Below, in pieces: positions 9,738-46,691 of a DNA stretch of 64,000 nt. The translations under genes were made by a program, and so were the position numbers. The notes beneath the pieces were generated by a model, which saw only the letters and a program-made list of their open reading frames with translations, did no database searches and was not told the origin of the DNA. This stretch comes from Planobispora longispora. Its GTDB lineage: Bacteria; Actinomycetota; Actinomycetes; Streptosporangiales; Streptosporangiaceae. The stretch lies in the NCBI RefSeq assembly GCF_016863135.1, contig NZ_BOOH01000048.1, positions 62,001-126,000 on the forward strand, in the 5' to 3' direction. The first letter of the stretch is position 1. Each line of letters starts with the position of its first letter.

Positions 9738-12640
<2,903 letters not shown>

Positions 12641-33008: not shown

Positions 33009-33950
33009 TCAGTCGCGCCCCGGACCGGGCGGGCGCGCCGGGCCGGGACGGCCCCCGCCGACGGTGAGGACGTCGCCCTGGCGGGCCACCTCGGCGACGC
33101 CCGCCAGTTCCTTCGCCAGGGCGTCCAGCTCGTCGTCGGTGCGGCCGGGGGCGTGGTGGGTGAGCACCAGGCGGCGGGCGCCGCAGCGGGCGGCGAAGGC
33201 CACCGCGTCCGGCACGGTGGCGTGGCCGTACCGGTCGGCGACGTCCTGCTCGCAGGCGAGGAACTGGCCGTCGTGCAGCAGCAGGTCCACTCCGGAGGCC
33301 AGCTCCTCGGCGGCCGCCGAGCCGAACTGCGGGGCGTGGTCGGGCAGGTAGGCCAGGGAGACGCCGTCGCACTCGACGCGGGTGCCGACGGTGACGCCCC
33401 CCTTGTGGACGATCTCGGCCTGGGTGACCGTGCAGCCGCCGATCCGCCGGGGCCCCGCCGTCGCCGGCAGGAAGCGCCAGGCGCCCAGCAGCCCGCCCGG
33501 AGTGATCGGGAAGTGCGGCGGGGACATCGCCCCGGCCAGCAGCGCCTCGGGCTCCGCCGGCTCCGCGGGGACGCCGGGCAGCACGAGGTCGACGCGGGCG
33601 CCGGGATGGTCGACGGAGCGGCTGAACGGCAGGCCCTGGACGTGGTCCCAGTGCAGGTGGCTCAGGAGGATCGTGCCGCGGAACGGCGCCCCGTCCAGGT
33701 GGCGGCCCAGCTCGCGCAGGCCGGTCCCGGCGTCCAGCACCAGGACGGGCGCGGGCTCCCCGCGACCGGACAGGACGGCCGGGATCCCGGCGCATCCGGC
33801 GGACGTCGCCCAGCGGTCCCGCCCGGCGGCGCGGCCGGCGGGCGGGTGCTCCGGGATGACGGCGACGCAGCTGGTGTGGCCGCCGTACCGGACGAACTCG
33901 GCGCCGGGGGCCGGGGTGGACCCCCGCACGCCGAGCAGCGCCACCCTCAC
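33009..33950 (-). CDS. MBL-fold metallo-hydrolase (possible cyclic-nucleotide phosphodiesterase)
   Basis: 313 residues. Metallo-beta-lactamase fold of the RNase Z/PhnP-like group. It begins LLGVRGSTPAPGAEFVRYGG, has the metal motif SHLHWDH (His98, His100, Asp102, His103) and later acidic/His ligands (YLPDHAP, LLHDGQF, LTHHAP). Members hydrolyse phosphodiesters, including RNA ends and cyclic nucleotides. The GTG start at 33950 overlaps the stop of the cyclic-nucleotide-binding gene by 4 nt, so both are co-translated, and a nucleotide cyclase is divergent. A role in degrading or relaying the cyclic nucleotide is inferred from this context only. Confidence 0.8.
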   Translation of the reverse strand: MRVALLGVRGSTPAPGAEFVRYGGHTSCVAVIPEHPPAGRAAGRDRWATSAGCAGIPAVLSGRGEPAPVLVLDAGTGLRELGRHLDGAPFRGTILLSHLHWDHVQGLPFSRSVDHPGARVDLVLPGVPAEPAEPEALLAGAMSPPHFPITPGGLLGAWRFLPATAGPRRIGGCTVTQAEIVHKGGVTVGTRVECDGVSLAYLPDHAPQFGSAAAEELASGVDLLLHDGQFLACEQDVADRYGHATVPDAVAFAARCGARRLVLTHHAPGRTDDELDALAKELAGVAEVARQGDVLTVGGGRPGPARPPGPGRD

Positions 33951-34936
33951 AGACCGGACCTCTCGCGGCGGTGGCCCTCGGCGAGACGGACCAGGAACGA
34001 CCGGTCGATCGCGTCGGCCGGGGCCTCGGCCACCCGGACGGGGGTCACCGCGGTGAGCGTGGCGGTACGGCTCCCGCCCTCCAGCAGGGCGCGCTCGCCC
34101 AGCACCGCGCCGGGCCCCAGCTCGGCCAGGACGCCGCCGCCCACGTCCACCGAGACCACCCCGTCCAGCAGCAGGAACAGGGAGTCGCCCGGATCGCCCT
34201 GGCGGACCAGGACCTCTCCCTGGCGGAGCTCGCGGACGACCGGCCTGGCCCCGCCGTGCATGAGCCGGGTGGACAGCTCCCGCTCCAGCGCCGTCTCGGC
34301 GGCGGTGACCACCACCGGGGAGTCCTCGGCGCCCCAGGGGGTGGCGATCTGCCCCGCCCACGCCTTGAAGTCGGCCACGCCCGCCTTGAGGCAGAGCCGG
34401 TCGGCGGAGTCGTACACCCAGTGCCGGGGGAAGGGGCTGGCCCCGACGAGTCCGACCGCCGAGCGGCCGTCGGCGTGCAGGGTGAGCGAGAGCGTCGTCC
34501 AGACCAGCGGAGCCTGCCAGCGGACGAACGGCGCCCTGGCGAGGGTGCGGGGGAACGGCAGCGCGGTACGGCCGCCGGCGGTCTGGGTGAACCGCACCCA
34601 GCCGTCGCCCGTCTCGGCCGGGGCGCGCAGATCGGGCAGGGGGACGGCGGCGAACGTGGCGCCGAGCCTGCCCAGCCGGACCGTGGTGGACCCGATGACC
34701 ACGCCGCCCTCGACGCCGTAGTCCACCGGCCGTCCCCCGGAGAACTCGGCCCAGGCGTGGATGCGGTTGGCGAACCGGTAGGCGTCGGCGTCGCGCATCC
34801 CCTCCAGATCGTCGAGCACGTCGGGCGGCGGGGAGTCGTAGTGGGAGATTCCTGCGGCGAACATCGTCCGGGTGTAACCCTTCACCGCTTCGGACGGAAT
34901 CCAAGACAGGGACGTCGCATGGGATTCGATACGCAT
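33947..34936 (-). CDS. Cyclic-nucleotide-binding-domain protein without HTH
   Basis: 329 residues. The C-terminal cNMP-binding domain (about 220-318) has LRQGEVLVRQGDPGDSLFLL and a phosphate-binding cassette GERALLEGGSRTATL (280-294) with the expected Glu and Arg. The first 210 residues form a domain I do not recognise (VKGYTRTMFAAGISHYDSPP, PFVRWQAPLVWTTLSLTLHA). There is no DNA-binding HTH, so it is not a CRP-type regulator. It is co-translated with the MBL hydrolase and divergent from the cyclase, and it probably acts as an effector or sensor for that cyclase's product. Confidence 0.8.
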   Translation of the reverse strand: MRIESHATSLSWIPSEAVKGYTRTMFAAGISHYDSPPPDVLDDLEGMRDADAYRFANRIHAWAEFSGGRPVDYGVEGGVVIGSTTVRLGRLGATFAAVPLPDLRAPAETGDGWVRFTQTAGGRTALPFPRTLARAPFVRWQAPLVWTTLSLTLHADGRSAVGLVGASPFPRHWVYDSADRLCLKAGVADFKAWAGQIATPWGAEDSPVVVTAAETALERELSTRLMHGGARPVVRELRQGEVLVRQGDPGDSLFLLLDGVVSVDVGGGVLAELGPGAVLGERALLEGGSRTATLTAVTPVRVAEAPADAIDRSFLVRLAEGHRRERSGL

Positions 34937-35092: not shown

Positions 35093-36430
35093 GTGGAACG
35101 CATCACCGTGCTGCTCGCGGACGACAACCTGATCGTCCGCGAAGGGGTGCGCGCGCTGCTGTCCAGGGATCCCGCCCTGGACGTGGTCGGCGTGGCGGCC
35201 GACTACGACGAGCTGGTCTCCCGGGCCGTGGAGCTGCGCCCGCAGGTCCTGGTCACCGACATCCGGATGCCGCCCACCTTCCAGAACGAGGGCATCGACG
35301 CGGCCCGGGAGGTGCGCGGGCGGCTGCCCGGCACCGGCGTGGTCGTGCTCAGCCAGTACGACGACCCCGAGTACGCGGTCGGGCTGCTGGCCGGCGGCGC
35401 CGACGGCTACGCCTACCTGCTGAAGGACAGGGTCGCCGACTCCGGCCTGCTGGGCCGGGCGATCCGCGAGGTGGCCGCCGGGGGATCGATGCTCGACCCC
35501 GTGATCGTGCGGGAGCTGCTCTCCCCCGCCCGCGCCGACGGCGAGCTGTCGGCCGAGGACGACGACCTGCTGGGCCAGATCGCGGAGGGCCGCTCGGTGA
35601 AGGCCGTCGCCGCCGCCCGCGGCGAGCCGCCGGAGGCGGTCAACGCGGCGATCGAGCGGCTCTTCCTCGGCCTGGCCCGGGACGCCAGCGTGGGACGGCA
35701 GAGCGCGCTGCGCCGGCTGCGCATGCTGCACACCGCGATCCTGCGGCGCGAGGAGCACGGCGAGAAGTTGTCGCGGCTGCTGCCCAGCGGCGTCGCCGAG
35801 CGGCTCCGCAGCGGCCTGGGCGAGCACACCGAGCGGCTGGTCGTCACCGTGCTCATGTCGGACGTCCGCGGCTACTCGGCCATCGCCGAACGCACCGACC
35901 CGGCCGTGCTGGCCGGTCAGCTCAACGCGCACCGGCGTGCCATGAACGCCGCCATCCTCAGCGGCGGCGGCACCGTCATGCAGTACGTCGGGGACGCGGT
36001 GATGGCCGTGTTCGGCGCCCCCTCCCCGCTGGAGGACCACGGCCCGCGGGCCGTACGGGCCGCCGCCGGCATGCACCTGCGGCAGCGCGAGCTGAACCGG
36101 GAGTGGGCGGCGCGCGGCGCCGCCCCGTTCGACCTGGGCATCGGGCTGTGCTCCGGCGAGGTCGCCGCCGCCCTGCTGGGCAGCGAGGAACGGCTCGAAT
36201 ACACGCTGGTCGGGGACACGGTCAACCTCGCCCAGCGGATGCAGGACCTGGCCCGGCCGTACGGCACGGTGGCCGCGGAGAGCACGGTGCGGGCGGCCGG
36301 GGACGCCTGGCCGTGGAAACCGCTCGGCTCCCGCGTCGTCAAGGGCCGCACCACCCCCGTCACCGCCTACCACCTCCTGGAGACCCCCGATGACCACCGA
36401 ACCGACCCGACAGGATCTGGCGACCACTGA
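35093..36430 (+). CDS. Response regulator fused to class III nucleotide cyclase
   Basis: 445 residues from GTG 35093 (GGAGG 10 nt upstream). Receiver domain 4-130: acidic pair Asp10/Asp11, phosphoacceptor Asp56 (VTDIRMPP), VVVLSQYDD and Lys111. Residues about 150-196 (LSAEDDDLLGQIAEGRSVKA) align with the LuxR HTH of the NarL regulator at 46020-46691 but look degenerate. The cyclase homology domain (248-428) keeps both metal Asp (257, 301) and the Asn378/Arg382 pair (GDTVNLAQR). The usual substrate-selecting Lys is Gln297, so cAMP versus cGMP cannot be called. Phosphorylation probably controls second-messenger synthesis. It heads the ABC-transporter/kinase operon. Confidence 0.9.
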   Translation: MERITVLLADDNLIVREGVRALLSRDPALDVVGVAADYDELVSRAVELRPQVLVTDIRMPPTFQNEGIDAAREVRGRLPGTGVVVLSQYDDPEYAVGLLAGGADGYAYLLKDRVADSGLLGRAIREVAAGGSMLDPVIVRELLSPARADGELSAEDDDLLGQIAEGRSVKAVAAARGEPPEAVNAAIERLFLGLARDASVGRQSALRRLRMLHTAILRREEHGEKLSRLLPSGVAERLRSGLGEHTERLVVTVLMSDVRGYSAIAERTDPAVLAGQLNAHRRAMNAAILSGGGTVMQYVGDAVMAVFGAPSPLEDHGPRAVRAAAGMHLRQRELNREWAARGAAPFDLGIGLCSGEVAAALLGSEERLEYTLVGDTVNLAQRMQDLARPYGTVAAESTVRAAGDAWPWKPLGSRVVKGRTTPVTAYHLLETPDDHRTDPTGSGDH

Positions 36431-37208
36431 GACGGCCGGGCCGGGCCCTGTCACCGCAGGGGTCACCGCCGGGGTCACCGCCGGGCCCGACCTCGCGACC
36501 GCCCTCGGGGCGGAGTCCGGGGTGGGGTCCGGACCGGGCCCCGCGGTCCGGATCCGCGGCGTCCGGCGCACCTTCGCCGCCGAGCTGGCGCCGGTGCGCG
36601 CGCTGCGCGGGCTCGACCTGGACGTCGCCGCGGGCGAGTTCATCGCGGTGACGGGCCCCTCGGGCTGCGGCAAGTCGACCCTGCTCAACGTCATCGCCGG
36701 TCTCGACCGGGTGGACGAGGGCGGCGTCGAGGTGGCCGGGGAACGGGTGGACGGCCGGGACGAGGACTGGCTGGCCCGCTTCCGCCGCCACCACATCGGC
36801 TTCGTGTTCCAGTTCTTCAACCTGCTGGACGGGGTGTCCGCGCTGGACAACCTGGTCATGCCGGGCGTGCTGGGCGGGATGCGCCGCCGGGCCGCCGAGT
36901 CCCGCGCCCGCGACCTGCTGGACCTGCTCGGCCTGGGCGACCGCGTCAGCCAGGTGCCCGCGGTGCTGTCCGGAGGTCAGCGCCAGCGGCTCGCCATCGC
37001 CAGGGCCCTGGTCAACCGGCCGACCCTGCTCCTGGCCGACGAGCCCACCGGCGCCCTGGACAGCGAGGGCGGGCTGGAGGTGCTGGAGCTGTTCCGGCGG
37101 CTGCACGACGACGGCCAGACGATCGTCATGGTCACCCACTCGGCCGAGGTGGCCTCGGGGGCCTCCCGCATCGTGCGGATGCGCGACGGCAAGATCGACA
37201 CCCCGTGA
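36390..37208 (+). CDS. ABC transporter ATPase, MacB/LolD family
   Basis: 272 residues. A low-complexity N-terminal extension of about 52 residues (repeat VTAGVTAGVTAG) precedes a LolD/MacB-type ATPase: Walker A GPSGCGKSTLLNVIAGLD, Q-loop FVFQFFNLLD, signature LSGGQRQRLAIARAL, Walker B LLLADEPTGALDS, switch His in VMVTHSAEVA. It overlaps the cyclase gene by 41 nt in a different frame, giving tight coupling. It drives the two FtsX-type permeases downstream; such systems work as mechanotransmitters or exporters. An ATG further in could also be used, since the extension is not conserved in the family. Confidence 0.92.
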   Translation: MTTEPTRQDLATTETAGPGPVTAGVTAGVTAGPDLATALGAESGVGSGPGPAVRIRGVRRTFAAELAPVRALRGLDLDVAAGEFIAVTGPSGCGKSTLLNVIAGLDRVDEGGVEVAGERVDGRDEDWLARFRRHHIGFVFQFFNLLDGVSALDNLVMPGVLGGMRRRAAESRARDLLDLLGLGDRVSQVPAVLSGGQRQRLAIARALVNRPTLLLADEPTGALDSEGGLEVLELFRRLHDDGQTIVMVTHSAEVASGASRIVRMRDGKIDTP

Positions 37209-37269: not shown

Positions 37270-39657
37270 ATGACCGCGATCTGGTTCCGCCTGGAACTGC
37301 GCCGCCGCCGGCGCTCACTGATCGTGCTCGCCCTGCTGGTCGCCCTGGCCACCGCCACCGTGCTCGCGGCGGCCGCGGGGGCCCGCCGCGGGCACACCTC
37401 GATGGACCGGCTGCGCGCCGTGACGCTGCCGGGGGACGCCGTGGTGCTGCCCAACCAGCCGGGCTTCGACTGGGACCGGGTCCGCGCCATACCCGGCGTC
37501 ATCGCGGTCGGCACCTTCCCGGTCTCCGGTTTCCACGTCGAGGACCTGCCGGGCGGCCCGCTGCCGGTGTGGATCCCCGGCCCCTCCGACACCGAGATGT
37601 GGCACACCATCGAGCGCCCCGTGCTGCTCGCGGGCCGGTTGCCGGCCCCCGGGCGCGCGGACGAGATCGCGGTGTCCGCCCGGTTCGCCGACGCCTACGG
37701 CAGAGGCCCCGGCGACACCCTCGCCCTCCGCCTGGCCTCCGCCGAGCAGTTGCGCAGCGTCCCGGACGCGGCGTTCGCGGTGCCGCAGGGTCCCCGGATC
37801 ACCGTGCGGATCACCGGGATCGTCCGCTCCCCCTGGTTCCGGGACCACATCGGGCAGGGCGGGGTCCCGTTCGTCTCCGCCGCCCTGTTCCAGCGCTACC
37901 GCGCCAACTTCATGGGGAGCGGGCGGGAGCAGCTGTTCGTCAACGCGCTGGTCCGGCTGGCCGGCGGCACCGACGCCCGGTCCCTGTCCCGGTTCAAGGA
38001 GGACCTGGCCAGGGTGACCGGACGCTCCGACATCGACGTGTGGAACGCGGCCGAGGACGTCCGGCACATCGGCGAGGTGCTGGACTACGAGGCGCTGTCC
38101 CTGCTCGCGTTCGGGCTGGCCGCGCTCGCCGCGGCCACCGTGCTGACCGGCCAGTCCATCGCCCGGTACTGCTGGGCCGCGGCGGCCGAGCTCCAGGTGC
38201 TGCGCGCCGTCGGCCTCGTCCGGCGCCAGGCGGTGGCCGCGGCCGCCCTTCCCGTGCTCGCCGCCGTCGCGGCGGGCGCCGCGCTGGGGCTGGCCGGCGC
38301 GGTGGCCGCCTCGCACTGGACGCCGATCGGCATCGCCGCCGACCTCGAACCCGCCCCGGGGCTCGACGCCGACTGGTGGGTCCTGGCCCCGGGGGCGCTG
38401 CTCGCGGTCGCACTCGGCGCTCTCGGCGCCGCCGTGTCCACGTGGCGGGCGCTGCGCGGTCCCCGGCCGGCCGACATACGGCCGTCGGCGGTGGCGACGG
38501 CCGCGGCCCGGGCCGGCCTGCCGGTGCCGGCCGTGCTGGGCGCCCGCTTCGCCCTGGAACGCGGCCGGGGCACGGTCCCGGTGCGTCCCGCGCTGCTGGG
38601 AGCGGTGGTGGGCGTGCTCGGCGTGCTGGCCAGCTTCACTTTCGCCGCCGGCGTCTCGGAGGCCGCGGGCAATCCCGTCAGGTTCGGCCAGACCCACCAG
38701 CTCGAAGCCATGATCGGCCTCAACGGCAAGGGGGACGATCCGTCGCGGACGCTCTCCGCGATCGCCGCCGTGCCGGAGGTCGCCGGGATCAACGACGGCC
38801 GGATAGCGGTCGCCCAGGCGGGAGACGTCGCGGTCCCGGTCTTCAGCCACGCGCCCGTCGGCCGGGCGGTGCCGGCCGTCCTCGTCGAGGGCCGGATGCC
38901 CGCCTCGGACGCGGAGGCGGTGCTGGCGGTGAGCACCGCCCGCCGCCTGGAGGCCGGGGTCGGGGACAGGGTGTCGCTCACCGGGCAGCGCGGCACCCGC
39001 GCGTTCACCGTCACCGGGATCGGCTTCGTGCCGATGAGCCCGCACAACGAGTACGACGAGGGCGCCTACCTCACATCCGCGGGATGGACCTCGCTGTTCG
39101 GCTCCTTCAAGTACCGCATCGTGCAGATCCTGCTCCACCCCGGAAGCGATCCCGCGGCCGCCGCGGAGCGGATCGGCGCGGCCACCGCCGAAGCTGGAAT
39201 CCCGGTCGAAGCCGGACCGGTCCTGCCGCCGAGGCAGCTGGCCGAGCTCAGGGACGTGGAGGTGCTGCCGGTGCTGCTGGGCGGGTTCCTGGCGCTGCTG
39301 GCGGTCGGCGCGGTCGGCCACGCCCTGGCCACCGCCGTACGGCGCCGCCGCCGCGAACTGGCCGTCATGCGCGCCCTGGGCCTGACCCGCCGCCAGGCCG
39401 GGCGGACCGTCACCGTCCAGGCCGCCCTCATCGCCCTGACCGGCCTGATCTTCGGCGTCCCCCTCGGTCTGGCCCTCGGCCGCGTCCTGTGGCGGGCCGT
39501 CGCCGAGCACACCCCGCTGCTGCACCACCCGCCGACCGCCCTGTGGACGCTGGTCCTCATCGCTCCGGCCGCCCTGCTCACCGCGGCCCTGCTCGCGGCC
39601 TGGCCGGGCCGCACCGCCGCCCGGCTGCGCGTCGCCGACGTCCTGAGGAGCGAGTAG
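37270..39657 (+). CDS. FtsX-like ABC permease, copy 1
   Basis: 795 residues. The arrangement is that of fused FtsX-type permeases: an N-terminal TM helix (RRRRSLIVLALLVALATATV), a large extracellular MacB-like domain (about 45-260), three TM helices, a second extracellular domain (about 455-650) and a C-terminal FtsX block (ALATAVRRRRRELAVMRALG). It works with the ATPase 61 nt upstream. It abuts a paralogue with no gap. Their first 25 codons and the last 130 codons are almost identical, the middles divergent. Confidence 0.92.
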   Translation: MTAIWFRLELRRRRRSLIVLALLVALATATVLAAAAGARRGHTSMDRLRAVTLPGDAVVLPNQPGFDWDRVRAIPGVIAVGTFPVSGFHVEDLPGGPLPVWIPGPSDTEMWHTIERPVLLAGRLPAPGRADEIAVSARFADAYGRGPGDTLALRLASAEQLRSVPDAAFAVPQGPRITVRITGIVRSPWFRDHIGQGGVPFVSAALFQRYRANFMGSGREQLFVNALVRLAGGTDARSLSRFKEDLARVTGRSDIDVWNAAEDVRHIGEVLDYEALSLLAFGLAALAAATVLTGQSIARYCWAAAAELQVLRAVGLVRRQAVAAAALPVLAAVAAGAALGLAGAVAASHWTPIGIAADLEPAPGLDADWWVLAPGALLAVALGALGAAVSTWRALRGPRPADIRPSAVATAAARAGLPVPAVLGARFALERGRGTVPVRPALLGAVVGVLGVLASFTFAAGVSEAAGNPVRFGQTHQLEAMIGLNGKGDDPSRTLSAIAAVPEVAGINDGRIAVAQAGDVAVPVFSHAPVGRAVPAVLVEGRMPASDAEAVLAVSTARRLEAGVGDRVSLTGQRGTRAFTVTGIGFVPMSPHNEYDEGAYLTSAGWTSLFGSFKYRIVQILLHPGSDPAAAAERIGAATAEAGIPVEAGPVLPPRQLAELRDVEVLPVLLGGFLALLAVGAVGHALATAVRRRRRELAVMRALGLTRRQAGRTVTVQAALIALTGLIFGVPLGLALGRVLWRAVAEHTPLLHHPPTALWTLVLIAPAALLTAALLAAWPGRTAARLRVADVLRSE

Positions 39658-42051
39658 ATGACCGCGATCTGGCTCCGCCTGGAACTGCGCCGCCGCCGGC
39701 GCTCGCTGATCGTGCTGGCCCTGCTGGTGGCCCTGGCCACGACCACCGTGCTGGCGTCGGTGGCCGGGGCGCGCCGGGGGATGTCCTCCGCCGAGCGGCT
39801 GCTCGCCGAGACCCTGCCCGGGCACGCGGTGGTCCTGCCCAACCAGGCCGGTTTCGACTGGGACAGGATCCGCGCCCTGCCGACGGTGGAGGCGGTGGCC
39901 ACGTTCGCCCTGTCGGGCTTCCACATAGAGGGCATACCGGGCGGATCGATGACCGACTGGCTGCCGACCATCGCCGACGACCAGAGCTGGCGCACCATCG
40001 AGAGGCCGCTCGTGCTGGAGGGCCGGCTGCCCGCCCCGCACAGCACCGACGAGCTGGCCGTCTCGCCCTACTTCCTGAAGCGGTGGAACCTCCAGGTGGG
40101 CGACACGGTGACGGTCCTGATGCCCAGCCCGGAACAGATGGACGACCCCATGCGGAACCCGGCGGCCATACGGCCCGCCGGGCCCCGGTTCCCGGCCAGG
40201 ATCACCGGGGTCATCCGGTCCATGTGGTTCTCCGACCAGGTGGACGGCGAGGGTTTCGCCCTCGGTTCGTACGGCATGTTCACCGAGTACCGCGCCAACA
40301 TCATGGGCTCCCGGGAGAGCGTGAACATCAACGCGCTGGTCCGGCTGCACGACGGCACGGACGGCATCCCGGCGTTCAAACAGGAGCTCGCCCGGGCGAC
40401 CGGCGACAACAACATCGACGTCTGGGACATGGGCCAGGAACTGGAGCACATCAACCAGGTGCTGGCCTTCGAGGCGCTGTCGCTGCTGGCGTTCGCGCTC
40501 GCCGCGCTCGCCGCGGCGGCGATCCTGATCGGCCAGTCCATGGCCCGCTACTGCGCCGCCGCGGTCGCCGAGCTCCAGTCGCTGCGCGCGGTCGGGCTCA
40601 CCCCCCGGCAGACCGTCACGGCGGCGGCGCTGGCCCCCGCCGTCGCAGCCGCCGCGGGCGCCGGGCTGGGCGTGGCGGGGGCGTTCGCGGCCTCGAACTG
40701 GATGCCGATCGGCATGGCGGCGCTCGGCGAACCCTATCCGGGCCTGGACGCCGACTGGCTGGTGCTGGCCCCGGGGTGGCTGGCCGTGACCGCCCTGGCC
40801 GCCCTGGCGGCGGCGGGGTCGGCCTGGATCGCCCTGCGCGGCTCCCGTCCGGCGGCGCGGCCGTCGGCGGTGGCGACGGGCGCGGCCCGGGCCGGACTGC
40901 CGGTGCCGGTGGTGGTCGGCGCCCGTTTCGCCCTGGAACGCGGACGCGGACGCGGGCGCGGCGCCGTCCCGGTCCGCCCCGCCCTGCTCGGCGCGGTCGT
41001 CGGCGTCCTCGGGGTGCTGGCCGCCCTCACCTTCGCCGCAGGCGTCTCCGACGCCGGGCGCAACCCGGCCCGCTACGGCCAGACCCACCAGGTCAACGTC
41101 TACCTGGGATTCGGCGGCCGGGGCGTCGGCGCCGACCGGGTGCTGCCCTGGCTGGCCGGTGACCGCGACGTCATCGGGGTCAACGAGGGCCGCAACGCGG
41201 TGGCGCAGTCCGGGGAGATCGCGGTCAGCACGTACTCCTACGCCCCGGTGGGACGGCCGATCCCCACGGTCGTCAGCGAGGGCCGGATGCCAGCCGCCGA
41301 CCACGAGGTGATGCTCGCGGTGAACACGGCCCGTCTGCTGAAGGCCGGGGTGGGGGACGCCGTATCGCTCGCCGGGGAGGACGGCACGGCCCGCGGGTTC
41401 ACCGTGACCGGCGTCGGCTTCGTGCCGATCGGCTCGCACAACGGCTACGCCGAGGGCGCGTACGTGACCGCCCGGGCGTGGGACGCCCTGTTCGACACCT
41501 TCAAGTTCCACATGGCGCACGTCGCGCTGCGCCCGGGCGCCGACCCCGAGGCGACGGCCGCGCGGTTCCAGTCGGAGGCCGGGCGTCTGCGGCTGCAGGT
41601 CGTGTTCGAGGCGACGGAACCGCCGCCGGAACTCGCCGAGATCAGGGACGTGGAGGTACTGCCGGTGCTGCTGGCCGGGTTCCTGGCGCTGCTGGCGGTC
41701 GGCGCGGTCGGCCACGCCCTGGCCACCGCCGTACGGCGCCGCCGCCACGAACTGGCCGTCATGCGCGCCCTGGGCCTGACCCGCCGCCAGGCCCGCTGGA
41801 TCGTCACCGTCCAGGCCACCCTCATCGCCCTGACCGGCCTGATCTTCGGCATCCCCCTCGGCCTGGCCCTCGGCCGCGCCCTGTGGCAGACCGTCGCTCA
41901 CCACGCGCCCCTCTTCTACCACCCGCCGGTGGCCTTCTGGGCCCTTCTCCTGGTGGGCCCGGTCGCGATCGTGACGGCCAACCTGCTCGCCGCCTGGCCC
42001 GGGCGCCTCGCGGCCCGGCTCAGGCTCGGCGACGTCCTGAGGACGGAGTGA
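39658..42051 (+). CDS. FtsX-like ABC permease, copy 2
   Basis: 797 residues; same topology as the preceding gene and starting on the nucleotide after its stop. The extracellular parts differ (IEGIPGGSMTDWLPTIADDQ; EYRANIMGSRESVNINALV), while the FtsX block (ALATAVRRRRHELAVMRALG) is near-identical. Two dissimilar permeases with one ATPase suggest a heterodimer. A histidine kinase follows after 42 nt, as in transporter-linked two-component systems that sense cell-envelope stress or peptides. Confidence 0.92.
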   Translation: MTAIWLRLELRRRRRSLIVLALLVALATTTVLASVAGARRGMSSAERLLAETLPGHAVVLPNQAGFDWDRIRALPTVEAVATFALSGFHIEGIPGGSMTDWLPTIADDQSWRTIERPLVLEGRLPAPHSTDELAVSPYFLKRWNLQVGDTVTVLMPSPEQMDDPMRNPAAIRPAGPRFPARITGVIRSMWFSDQVDGEGFALGSYGMFTEYRANIMGSRESVNINALVRLHDGTDGIPAFKQELARATGDNNIDVWDMGQELEHINQVLAFEALSLLAFALAALAAAAILIGQSMARYCAAAVAELQSLRAVGLTPRQTVTAAALAPAVAAAAGAGLGVAGAFAASNWMPIGMAALGEPYPGLDADWLVLAPGWLAVTALAALAAAGSAWIALRGSRPAARPSAVATGAARAGLPVPVVVGARFALERGRGRGRGAVPVRPALLGAVVGVLGVLAALTFAAGVSDAGRNPARYGQTHQVNVYLGFGGRGVGADRVLPWLAGDRDVIGVNEGRNAVAQSGEIAVSTYSYAPVGRPIPTVVSEGRMPAADHEVMLAVNTARLLKAGVGDAVSLAGEDGTARGFTVTGVGFVPIGSHNGYAEGAYVTARAWDALFDTFKFHMAHVALRPGADPEATAARFQSEAGRLRLQVVFEATEPPPELAEIRDVEVLPVLLAGFLALLAVGAVGHALATAVRRRRHELAVMRALGLTRRQARWIVTVQATLIALTGLIFGIPLGLALGRALWQTVAHHAPLFYHPPVAFWALLLVGPVAIVTANLLAAWPGRLAARLRLGDVLRTE

Positions 42052-42096
42052 TGACACCGTGAACCCGAGGAGCGGCCGTACGGGGAGGGCGGGGTG

Positions 42097-44037
42097 ATGG
42101 GCGCCGCCTCGGCGGTGGCCGTCGCTCTGGCCGTGGCGTGGGCGGCCGTCGCGCTGGTCCTGGCGCCCCGCCACGACGCCCGCGCGCTGGCGCGCGGCGC
42201 CGGGCTGCTCGCGGCGGCCCAGGCGGCCGCGGCGGCGTGGACGGCCGCGGTCCCGGTCGTGATCGGAGGCTGGTTCTGCCTGGCGCTCGAACTGCCCGGC
42301 GGGCGGCTGGGCTCGCCGTGGCGGCGGCTGGCGGCGGGTGCGGTCCTGCTCGGCGGCGGCGTCTGGACGGCGCTGCTCCTGCGGGACGGCGACCCCGGCT
42401 CCGGGCTCCGGTTCGGCCTGGCGTTCGCGGGCTGCGCGGCCGTGGCGGGCCCGGCGATGGCGCTGCGCTGCATGCGCGCCTCCGCCCGGGAACGCGCGGC
42501 GCTGCAGTGGACCGCGGCCACCGCGCTGCTGGCGGGTGCGGCCACCGCGGTGCTGCTCTCGCTGAGGCTGCTGATGGGCGTCCCGGCCGACCCGCTGCCC
42601 TGGGTGCTGGCGACGCTGTCGCTGATCCCGCTGGGGGTGACGCTGGGCGCTCTGCCCGCGACCGCCCGGGCCGGGGAGCGGGCGCTCACCGAGGCGGTCG
42701 TGGTCTCCGGATTCACCGCCATGATCGCCGCGGTGTACCTGGTGATGGTGATCGGGCTGGGCCGCGTCCCGGAGGAGGGCGAGCGGGACATCCTGCTGGC
42801 CGGCATGGCCGCGGCGGGCGTGGTGGCGGTGCTCGCGCTGCCGTTCCGGGCCCGGATGACCGCCACCGCGCACTCCCTGATCGGGCGCGCCGAGGTGCCG
42901 CCCGAGGAGCTGCTGGCCACCTTCGGCGCCCGGATGAGCCGCGCCGTGCCGTTCGACGAGCTGCTGCTCCAGCTCACGGAGTCGCTGCGGGCGACGCTGG
43001 GCCAGGCCGGGGCGGAGGTGTGGGTGGGATCGGACGGCATCCTGACTCGCGCGGTGAGCGTGCCGGACCGGCCCCAGGAACGGCTGGAGCTGGACGAGCG
43101 GGAGCGGGTGGTGGTGGGCAGGACGCGGGTGTCCGGCGCCGGCTGGCTGGCGATCTGGCTGCCCGGGCTGCTGGCGGGGCACCCGGACGGGACGCCGATC
43201 AGGGTGGCGCCCGTCTCCCACCTGGGCGAGCTGCTCGGGCTGATCATGGTGCGCAGGCCGGGCGACGGCCTGCCGTACACCGAGGAGGACGACCGGGTGC
43301 TGGTCGAGCTGGCCCGCCAGGTCGGGCTGGCGCTGCACAACATGCGCCTGGACTCGGCGCTCCAGGCGTCCCTGGACGAGCTGCGGCGGCGCAACGAGGA
43401 GCTCCAGGCGTCCCGGCTGCGGATCGTGACCGCGGCCGACGCGGCCCGCCGCGCCATCGAGCGGGACCTGCACGACGGCGCCCAGCAGCACCTGGTGGCG
43501 CTCTCGGTGAAGCTGGGACTGGCCACCGAGCTGGCCGACGAGGACCCGGACCTGGTCAAGGCCCTCCTCGGAGAGCTGCGGGAGGACGTGCAGCAGACCA
43601 TCACGGCGGTGCGGGAACTGGCCCACGGCATCTACCCGCCGCTGCTGCGCAACCACGGCCTCGGCCAGGCGCTGAACTCGGCGGCCAGGCGTTCGCCGCT
43701 GCCGTGCGCGGTCGAGGTGGACCTGCCGGGCCGGTACTCGGAGGAGATCGAGGCCGCGGTGTACTTCTGCTGCCTGGAGGCCATGCAGAACGCGGGCAAG
43801 TACGCCGGCGACGGCGCCGCCGTCACCGTGGAGGTGTCGGTCGCGAACTCCTCGCTCCGCTTCGAGGTGGCCGACGACGGCGTCGGGTTCACGGTGGAGG
43901 AGCGGGGACACGGGTTCGTCAACATGCGGGACCGGCTGGGCGCGATCGGCGGCAGGCTCGCCGTGGAGTCGCGCCCCGGCGCCGGAACCCGGATCCGGGG
44001 GGAGGTGCCGCTGCTCAGACCGGCGCGGAGGACATGA
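42097..44037 (+). CDS. Membrane histidine kinase with GAF domain (NarL-type partner)
   Basis: 646 residues from ATG 42097 (in-frame GTG 42094). About eight TM segments fill residues 1-255 and a GAF-like domain follows (about 265-420; ELLATFGARMSRAVPFDELL). HisKA_3 carries the phosphorylatable His at about 459 (IERDLHDGAQQHLVALSVKL), and the HATPase ends with DDGVGFTVEERGHGFVNMRD and GGRLAVESRPGAGTRI. It is the likely donor for the cyclase-fused receiver at 35093 and/or the NarL regulator at 46020. Position in the ABC operon suggests it senses transporter state or substrate. Confidence 0.92.
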   Translation: MGAASAVAVALAVAWAAVALVLAPRHDARALARGAGLLAAAQAAAAAWTAAVPVVIGGWFCLALELPGGRLGSPWRRLAAGAVLLGGGVWTALLLRDGDPGSGLRFGLAFAGCAAVAGPAMALRCMRASARERAALQWTAATALLAGAATAVLLSLRLLMGVPADPLPWVLATLSLIPLGVTLGALPATARAGERALTEAVVVSGFTAMIAAVYLVMVIGLGRVPEEGERDILLAGMAAAGVVAVLALPFRARMTATAHSLIGRAEVPPEELLATFGARMSRAVPFDELLLQLTESLRATLGQAGAEVWVGSDGILTRAVSVPDRPQERLELDERERVVVGRTRVSGAGWLAIWLPGLLAGHPDGTPIRVAPVSHLGELLGLIMVRRPGDGLPYTEEDDRVLVELARQVGLALHNMRLDSALQASLDELRRRNEELQASRLRIVTAADAARRAIERDLHDGAQQHLVALSVKLGLATELADEDPDLVKALLGELREDVQQTITAVRELAHGIYPPLLRNHGLGQALNSAARRSPLPCAVEVDLPGRYSEEIEAAVYFCCLEAMQNAGKYAGDGAAVTVEVSVANSSLRFEVADDGVGFTVEERGHGFVNMRDRLGAIGGRLAVESRPGAGTRIRGEVPLLRPARRT

Positions 44038-45601: not shown

Positions 45602-45961
45602 TCAGGCGGCGGGGAGGAACTCGCGGAGCCGGGACGGCGTCAGGTGGTCCTTGCGGATGTAGCCGGCGGCGCCGCAGGTGCGCGCCTCCGGCGGCAGGTC
45701 CTCGGCCGCGTAGGTGGACACCAGCACGACCGAGATCCCGGGGTGCTCGTCCACGATCCTGCGGGTCGCCTCGATGCCGCTGATGCCGGGCAGGTTGATG
45801 TCCATCAGGATCACCTCCGGCCTGGCCTCGGCGACCCGGGCGAGCGCCTCCTCCCCCGACACCGCCTCGCCGACGACCCTCCAGCCGGCGACCAGCCCCA
45901 CCAGCCTCCTCGCCGCCGCGCGGAACGGGCCCTGGTCATCGACGATGAACACCTCGACCAC
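45602..45961 (-). CDS. Single-domain response-regulator receiver
   Basis: 119 residues: only a receiver domain (FIVDDQGPFRAAARRLVGLV, phosphoacceptor Asp54 in VILMDINLPG, VLVSTY, Lys in GYIRKDHLTP). The protein stops right after the receiver, without an output domain and with no HTH remnant downstream. It may act as a phosphate sink or by protein contact, in the manner of CheY or Spo0F. It lies 59 nt downstream of the NarL regulator on the same strand and may be co-transcribed. Confidence 0.88.
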   Translation of the reverse strand: MVEVFIVDDQGPFRAAARRLVGLVAGWRVVGEAVSGEEALARVAEARPEVILMDINLPGISGIEATRRIVDEHPGISVVLVSTYAAEDLPPEARTCGAAGYIRKDHLTPSRLREFLPAA

Positions 45962-45995
45962 CCCCTCAGGGTGCCCCGCCGGCCGCCGGTCCGCC

Positions 45996-46019: not shown

Positions 46020-46691
46020 TCACTTCGCCTGCCGCTCCGACAGGTACAGCAGGACCGCGAGCACGCGGCGGTTCACCTCGGGGGCGGCCTCCAGGCCGAG
46101 CTTGGCGAACAGCACGTTGATGTGCTTCTCCACCGACTTCTCGCTGAGGAACAGCGCCCGGCCGACGGCGGCGTTGCTCCTGCCCTGCGCGATCTGGGCC
46201 AGCACCTCCAGCTCCCGCTGGGTGAGCGAGGCCAGCGGGGAGGCCTTGCGGCGCAGCGAGTCGGCCAGGATGGCGTCCACCACCACCGGGTCGATCACCG
46301 AGCCGCCCCTGACCACCGCCAGCACCGCCTCCACCAGCTGGCCGGGCTCCCCCACCCGCTCCTTGAGCAGGTAGGCCCGGCCCGCGCTGCCCTCGGCGAG
46401 CAGCGGCGCCGCGTAGGCGGGCTCGGCGTACTGGGAGAGCACCACCACGCCGGTGCGCGGGTGGCTGCGCCGCAGCCGGGTCGCCGCCTGGATGCCCTCG
46501 TCCGTCGAGGTGGGGGGCATCCGCACGTCCGTCACCACGACGTCCGGGCCGTGCTCCTCCACCGCGCCCATCAGCTGGGGCAGGTCGGCGCACTCGGCGA
46601 CCACCTCGATGTCGGGGTGACGGGAGAGCACCCGCTGCACGCCCTCGCGGACCAGCAGGGAATCCTCGGCGATGACGACCCGGACAGTCAC
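46020..46691 (-). CDS. NarL/LuxR-family response regulator
   Basis: 223 residues from GTG 46691. Receiver: VRVVIAEDSLLVREGVQRVL, Asp55 in VVVTDVRMPP, and TSTDEGIQAATRLR, the extended loop also seen in the cyclase-fused receiver at 35093. LuxR HTH at the C-terminus: LTQRELEVLAQIAQGRSNAA and SEKSVEKHINVLFAKLGL. It is the probable transcriptional output of the kinase at 42097 and a candidate binder of the palindrome at 35018. Confidence 0.93.
   Translation of the reverse strand: MTVRVVIAEDSLLVREGVQRVLSRHPDIEVVAECADLPQLMGAVEEHGPDVVVTDVRMPPTSTDEGIQAATRLRRSHPRTGVVVLSQYAEPAYAAPLLAEGSAGRAYLLKERVGEPGQLVEAVLAVVRGGSVIDPVVVDAILADSLRRKASPLASLTQRELEVLAQIAQGRSNAAVGRALFLSEKSVEKHINVLFAKLGLEAAPEVNRRVLAVLLYLSERQAK

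Follow-up and report, generated by a model that had tools for sequence, protein, structure and literature searches.

A predicted LuxR/NarL-type helix-turn-helix fold between the receiver and cyclase domains of an actinobacterial response regulator

Cyanobacterial CyaC, with its receiver domains, is a known receiver (REC)-class III cyclase, and regulators of the NarL/FixJ family, among them those resembling MadR/MctR, carry a receiver followed by a tetrahelical helix-turn-helix (HTH). In mycobacteria, CHD+LuxR proteins (Rv0386 and its kin) hold a cyclase and a LuxR-type HTH in one protein, and an unusual mode of substrate selection has been attributed to Rv0386 (FEBS J 2005 272:3085, as cited in PMC3466318). 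PMC3466318 gives CHD+LuxR and REC+LuxR architectures, and a REC+LuxR+CHD architecture did not appear in its searched passages; the available text of PMC2447327 yielded no match on the subject.

Here, we analyze a receiver-cyclase gene in a stretch of 64,000 nucleotides from Planobispora longispora (contig NZ_BOOH01000048.1, positions 62,001 to 126,000; hereafter the window, to which all positions refer). As in CyaC-type proteins, a receiver is predicted to control a class III cyclase domain, a likeness drawn from the general description of CyaC and not from its connector; in the present protein the connector is a former LuxR-type HTH. With NarL/FixJ regulators, especially the MadR/MctR-like ones, the protein shares a colinear REC and tetrahelical HTH of equal length, and its receiver half scores on the NCBIfam MctR/MadR models below their cut-offs. 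It differs from them in that the DNA contacts are lost, a cyclase domain is appended and the HTH lies below the Pfam GerE cut-off. Whereas Rv0386 and its kin, as presented in the available text of PMC3466318, have a recognisable LuxR domain in the order CHD+LuxR, the order here is REC+HTH+CHD. REC-cyclase regulators, NarL regulators and mycobacterial cyclase+LuxR proteins are known kinds; neither a NarL-derived REC-HTH-cyclase nor a cyclase with a vestigial HTH was directly described in the open literature searched, a search outside which most subscription journals lie.

The receiver, the cyclase and the fold between them

35093-36430, plus strand: receiver-cyclase gene, 445 aa (Pfam receiver 6-106, class III cyclase 251-426)
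35102-35476, plus strand: receiver domain, aa 4-128 (Pfam Response_reg 6-106; homolog residue counts)
35258-35260, plus strand: phospho-acceptor Asp56, with the acid pair D10/D11, S87 and K111
35546-35689, plus strand: remodelled LuxR/NarL-type HTH, aa 152-199 (PDB profile search, hhalign, AF2, Foldseek)
35630-35680, plus strand: former recognition helix, aa 180-196 (residues tallied by alignment column in 82 cyclases, 44 linked regulators and 60 further ones)
35690-35833, plus strand: lengthened fourth helix (200-222) and conserved connector into the cyclase (AF2 helix; connector REEQGETLSRLLPxGLAEKL)
35834-36376, plus strand: class III nucleotide cyclase domain, aa 248-428 (Pfam Guanylate_cyc; residue counts; alignment with Cya2 and CyaB)

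The residues of a response-regulator receiver (D10, D11, D56, S87 and K111) are invariant among 82 homologs, as are the metal-binding D257 and D301 and the transition-state N378 and R382 of the catalytic domain, which matches Guanylate_cyc with a Pfam E-value of 9.9e-17. Because of this invariance, both ends of the protein, receiver and catalytic, are predicted to be functional. The closest solved catalytic domains are those of Cya2 and CyaB (2w01, 3r5g; E about 1e-38), which have the same metal and transition-state residues. At the two substrate-selecting positions the family departs from the canonical class III pair, which is Lys with Asp or Thr for ATP and Glu/Cys for GTP: aa 297 (35981-35983) is Gln in 82/82 homologs, as against Lys in CyaB and Glu in Cya2, and aa 371 (36203-36205) is Thr in 78/82, giving a non-canonical pair of Gln with Thr/Ser. 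The substrate pair varies among known active class III cyclases, Rv0386 being one example. With Gln297/Thr371 the substrate may be ATP or GTP, which limits prediction of the product and not membership of class III.

Domain annotation of the single sequence gives REC and cyclase only and misses the HTH module. Pfam returns no GerE or other HTH match for this sequence, even at E 10; weak GerE matches appear in 21 of 51 cyclase homologs at E up to 10, the best (1.2e-4) still not above the curated cut-off. A profile of the linker (residues 134-250, built from 54 homologs) run against the PDB is more informative, with the E. coli NarL HTH as its top match (E 0.0013), then the HTH domains of LiaR-type proteins, VraR, DesR and DosR in the same register; most of the 29 PDB matches are LuxR/NarL-type HTH chains, in register. 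The full-length cyclase profile aligns VraR, DevR and NarL across REC and HTH together.

A first-pass annotation, made from the letters of the DNA, had aligned the linker with the HTH of a NarL regulator nearby and had suggested structure prediction and HMM-HMM comparison as checks. Both bear the alignment out, the quoted 20-mers being offset by one residue. In hhalign, the cyclase linker reached 95.7% over 45 columns against 60 NarL-type regulators from outside the subfamily, compared with at most 3% for 60 column-shuffled profiles and 0.4% for a reversed profile. AF2 models the full-length cyclase (mean pLDDT 85) with four NarL-like helices in NarL order, at 154-164, 169-176, 180-196 and 200-222, the first three lying within residues 152-199 and the last longer than in NarL. 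The isolated linker segment was modelled with a mean pLDDT of 65.5; nearly all of its Foldseek neighbours are LuxR/NarL HTHs, the best at 0.7-1.0 Å over about 45 residues, with E-values of 0.5 and above that are non-significant for so small an HTH alone. Judged by profiles and models together, residues 152-199 are a real LuxR/NarL-type HTH of the NarL/FixJ fold. A generic coiled coil or signalling helix that resembles an HTH by chance would suit the Pfam blank on the single sequence and the way in which the linker runs on into a long helix (the fourth helix and connector region has 67% mean pairwise identity). This reading is ruled out, to within the slightest remaining probability, by the agreement in register of the profile, the HMM-HMM comparison with its controls, the AF2 model and the fold neighbours.

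The recognition-helix residues through which NarL contacts DNA, numbered as in the NarL-DNA structure 1je8, are absent at the corresponding positions of the 82 cyclase homologs. K188 is replaced by N/D (also A/S), V189 mostly by A, H190 mostly by A (also E/L) and K192 by E in 77/82. Over its 48 residues the HTH has a mean net charge of -3.0 in the cyclases, -0.6 in the linked NarL regulators and +2.3 in ordinary regulators. Across 43 loci the HTH of the cyclases is less conserved (0.56, or 56%) than their receiver (0.72, or 72%), and in the linked regulators of the same loci the order is reversed (HTH 0.68, or 68%; receiver 0.61, or 61%). The length and core of the cyclase HTH are nevertheless kept over the 82 homologs, with G166, K170 and A173 invariant and E188 and F191 nearly so. 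With core and length conserved and the DNA contacts gone, DNA reading appears to have been given up and the fold kept. The earlier description of this HTH as decayed is not supported, given its conservation in fold, length and core, and "remodelled scaffold" fits better.

NarL-type HTHs dimerise via their last helix, and the conserved fold and core, including the invariant K170, might suggest that the HTH of the cyclase still acts on nucleic acid in a bifunctional protein, or that it pairs with the linked NarL regulator and titrates it. We consider this improbable, given the N/D, A, A and E now found at the NarL contact positions, the net charge of about -3 against +2.3 in ordinary regulators, and several surface positions of the recognition helix that vary freely among the 82 homologs.

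The linked NarL regulator and the age of the fusion

46020-46691, minus strand: linked NarL-type response regulator, 223 aa (Pfam REC and GerE), the best genomic match of the cyclase
46083-46226, minus strand: intact GerE HTH of the linked NarL regulator (Pfam)

The linked NarL gene lies 9.6 kb from the cyclase gene. Among 77 matches in the whole genome it is the best non-self match of the cyclase (E 1.5e-40, 46% identity over residues 4-199; next-best 8.8e-31), and it also leads a search with the receiver only (51%, 2.9e-38; next 5.5e-30). Identity between the two proteins is 35% over HTH columns and 51% over receivers. Receiver helix 1 (DDNLIVREGV in the cyclase, EDSLLVREGV in the linked NarL) and the beta5-alpha5 loop, which are the usual kinase-contact surfaces, are nearly the same in both. 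The first-pass annotation had noted an unusual MPPT-x-EGI loop and an LSQY motif common to these receivers. Both receivers do carry them, but they are not private to the pair, since eight other NarL-type regulators of the genome have an MPP-type loop and/or an LSQY-like motif; on sequence comparison the MPPT..EG/LSQY marks characterise a subfamily with about ten members in this genome and not the cyclase/NarL pair alone.

Receiver phylogenies, likewise proposed there, were calculated from REC+HTH and from REC only, with and without outgroup, and complemented by AU tests (128-222 columns). They place cyclases and linked NarLs in one NarL subfamily with 100% support, and the cyclases are a single clade in the REC+HTH trees. 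The stronger claim that cyclase and linked NarL are sister proteins is not borne out to the same degree, as the nearest relative of the cyclases differs between trees and neither trees nor AU tests single out the linked NarL. The careful REC+HTH tree joins the cyclases to the L099/L120 branch (84/87, not starred), nested among linked NarLs. The careful REC-only tree, built on 128 columns and distantly rooted, sets them apart from all regulators (99/98), the linked NarLs grouping with the others. Within the subfamily the inner branches are short compared with that of the cyclases, and 128-222 columns offer too little signal to order them.

Both topologies would agree with a cyclase derived from another NarL of the subfamily, such as one of the L099/L120 branch, that joined the cluster later, an origin that would leave the descent of the HTH untouched. 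We regard this as unlikely: the linked NarL is the best match of the cyclase in the genome, the receivers of the cyclases are on average slightly closer in identity to those of linked NarLs (0.51, against 0.48 and 0.42), the linkage is kept over the phylum and includes direct adjacency in a divergent clade, and AU tests accept a grouping of cyclases with linked NarLs (p 0.34-0.76). The same tests also accept cyclases with other branches of the subfamily, and with REC only none of the tested orders was rejected. Descent of the cyclase from a NarL-type regulator, claimed from the outset, is corroborated by the HTH-derived linker, the colinearity of the whole REC-HTH part with NarL regulators and the lost DNA contacts.

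Full-length homologs with 58-79% identity occur in Streptosporangiaceae, Frankia, Jiangella, Pseudonocardia, Agromyces, Acidimicrobiia and others, and 33 of 296 genomes sampled over Actinomycetota encode homologs, down to 43% identity. The presence of homologs throughout the phylum in a conserved neighbourhood indicates that the fusion is ancient, that it is older than the family's spread across several Actinomycetota classes and that the pair has travelled together. A recent local fusion in the Planobispora genome, which two sister genes 10 kb apart might have suggested, is thereby ruled out. In most of the divergent cyclase clade (43-52% identity) the NarL gene adjoins the cyclase gene on the opposite strand; among cyclases L189-L199 (43-49% identity) this direct adjacency is seen in 9/11, usually with several kinases nearby, and it is possibly the older gene order. 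In one congener (L016; G003:C16:10000-26000, about 10687-11856) the cyclase gene is short by about 290 and 160 bp compared with that in the window, with NarL, kinase and transporter genes recognisable nearby, through gene decay or a draft-assembly artefact.

The conserved gene cluster

33009-33953, minus strand: metallo-beta-lactamase-fold hydrolase (Pfam Lactamase_B_2), weak candidate for a cNMP phosphodiesterase
33947-34936, minus strand: protein with C-terminal cNMP-binding domain (Pfam cNMP_binding, E 5.7e-19), divergent to the cyclase gene, candidate effector
36390-37208, plus strand: ABC transporter ATPase, MacB/LolD-like (Pfam/NCBIfam)
37270-39657, plus strand: FtsX/MacB-like permease 1 (Pfam)
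39658-42051, plus strand: FtsX-like permease 2 (Pfam)
42094-44037, plus strand: sensor histidine kinase with GAF-like, HisKA_3 and HATPase_c domains (Pfam), candidate common kinase
45611-45964, minus strand: stand-alone receiver, 118 aa, adjoining the NarL gene (NCBIfam receiver matches)

The transporter ATPase gene lies directly downstream of the cyclase gene in 70/77 loci, and FtsX permeases are present in 45/55. The histidine kinase, with a conserved R[DN]LHDGAQQ motif, is encoded downstream on the same strand in 47/55 loci. A linked NarL-type gene is present in 39/55 loci with enough sequence, and the stand-alone receiver is found beside it in 37/39. In the window, the cluster comprises a single kinase and three receivers, and other regulators of the subfamily mostly adjoin kinases of their own. 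The stand-alone receiver (45611-45964) would be the third receiver served by the kinase of the cluster and might act as a phosphate sink. In this genome and many relatives the NarL gene lies on the other strand at a distance of several genes, and its co-regulation with the cyclase gene is therefore not given.

Upstream of the cyclase gene, the gene for the cNMP-binding protein is divergently oriented in 60/72 loci, and the phosphate-binding cassette GERAxLEGGxRT is common among homologs of this protein. The metallo-hydrolase is found in 52/68 cyclase loci and has HLHWDH in 35/35 homologs checked; its match to an NCBIfam cyclic-nucleotide phosphodiesterase model is far below the cut-off. The two proteins (33009-34936, minus strand) are a likely reader and a possible eraser of the cyclase product.

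Proposed origin and mechanism

We propose that the cyclase is a response regulator whose output moved from DNA binding to second-messenger synthesis, an explanation that, taken as a whole, we hold to be fairly probable. Its firm ground, established by sequence comparison and modelling, is the HTH homology, the lost DNA contacts, the conserved catalytic and phosphorylation residues and the conserved cluster. The ancestor would have been a NarL-type regulator of the MPP[TS]..EG subfamily in an early actinobacterium, probably copied from the NarL still present in the cluster, to whose C-terminal end a class III cyclase domain was added. The HTH would then have kept its fold and dropped its DNA contacts, its last helix lengthening into the connector to the cyclase.

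For the present-day protein we infer kinase sharing, a dimer relay, a product and an effector. The single HisKA_3 kinase of the cluster would phosphorylate both regulators, the NarL protein on its Asp and the cyclase on Asp56. In the cyclase this might free the contact between receiver and HTH, upon which the former HTH and helix 4 could pair up and draw two cyclase domains together as an active dimer. The resulting cyclic nucleotide would be read by the divergently encoded cNMP-binding protein, the putative effector, while the metallo-hydrolase may remove it. A single sensor could in this way serve a transcriptional branch and a second-messenger branch. That such a branched two-component system (one kinase, two paralogous regulators, a former HTH as relay and a cNMP effector encoded next door) operates throughout the phylum is a more tentative proposal, which we regard as possible rather than probable.

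The family offers a fairly clear example of a transcription factor turned enzyme, with the DNA-binding fold kept as a connector and a related intact regulator still present in the same cluster across the phylum. It makes testable what role an HTH may take on once it no longer reads DNA, here that of a dimer relay, and whether one kinase can feed both a gene-expression branch and a second-messenger branch.
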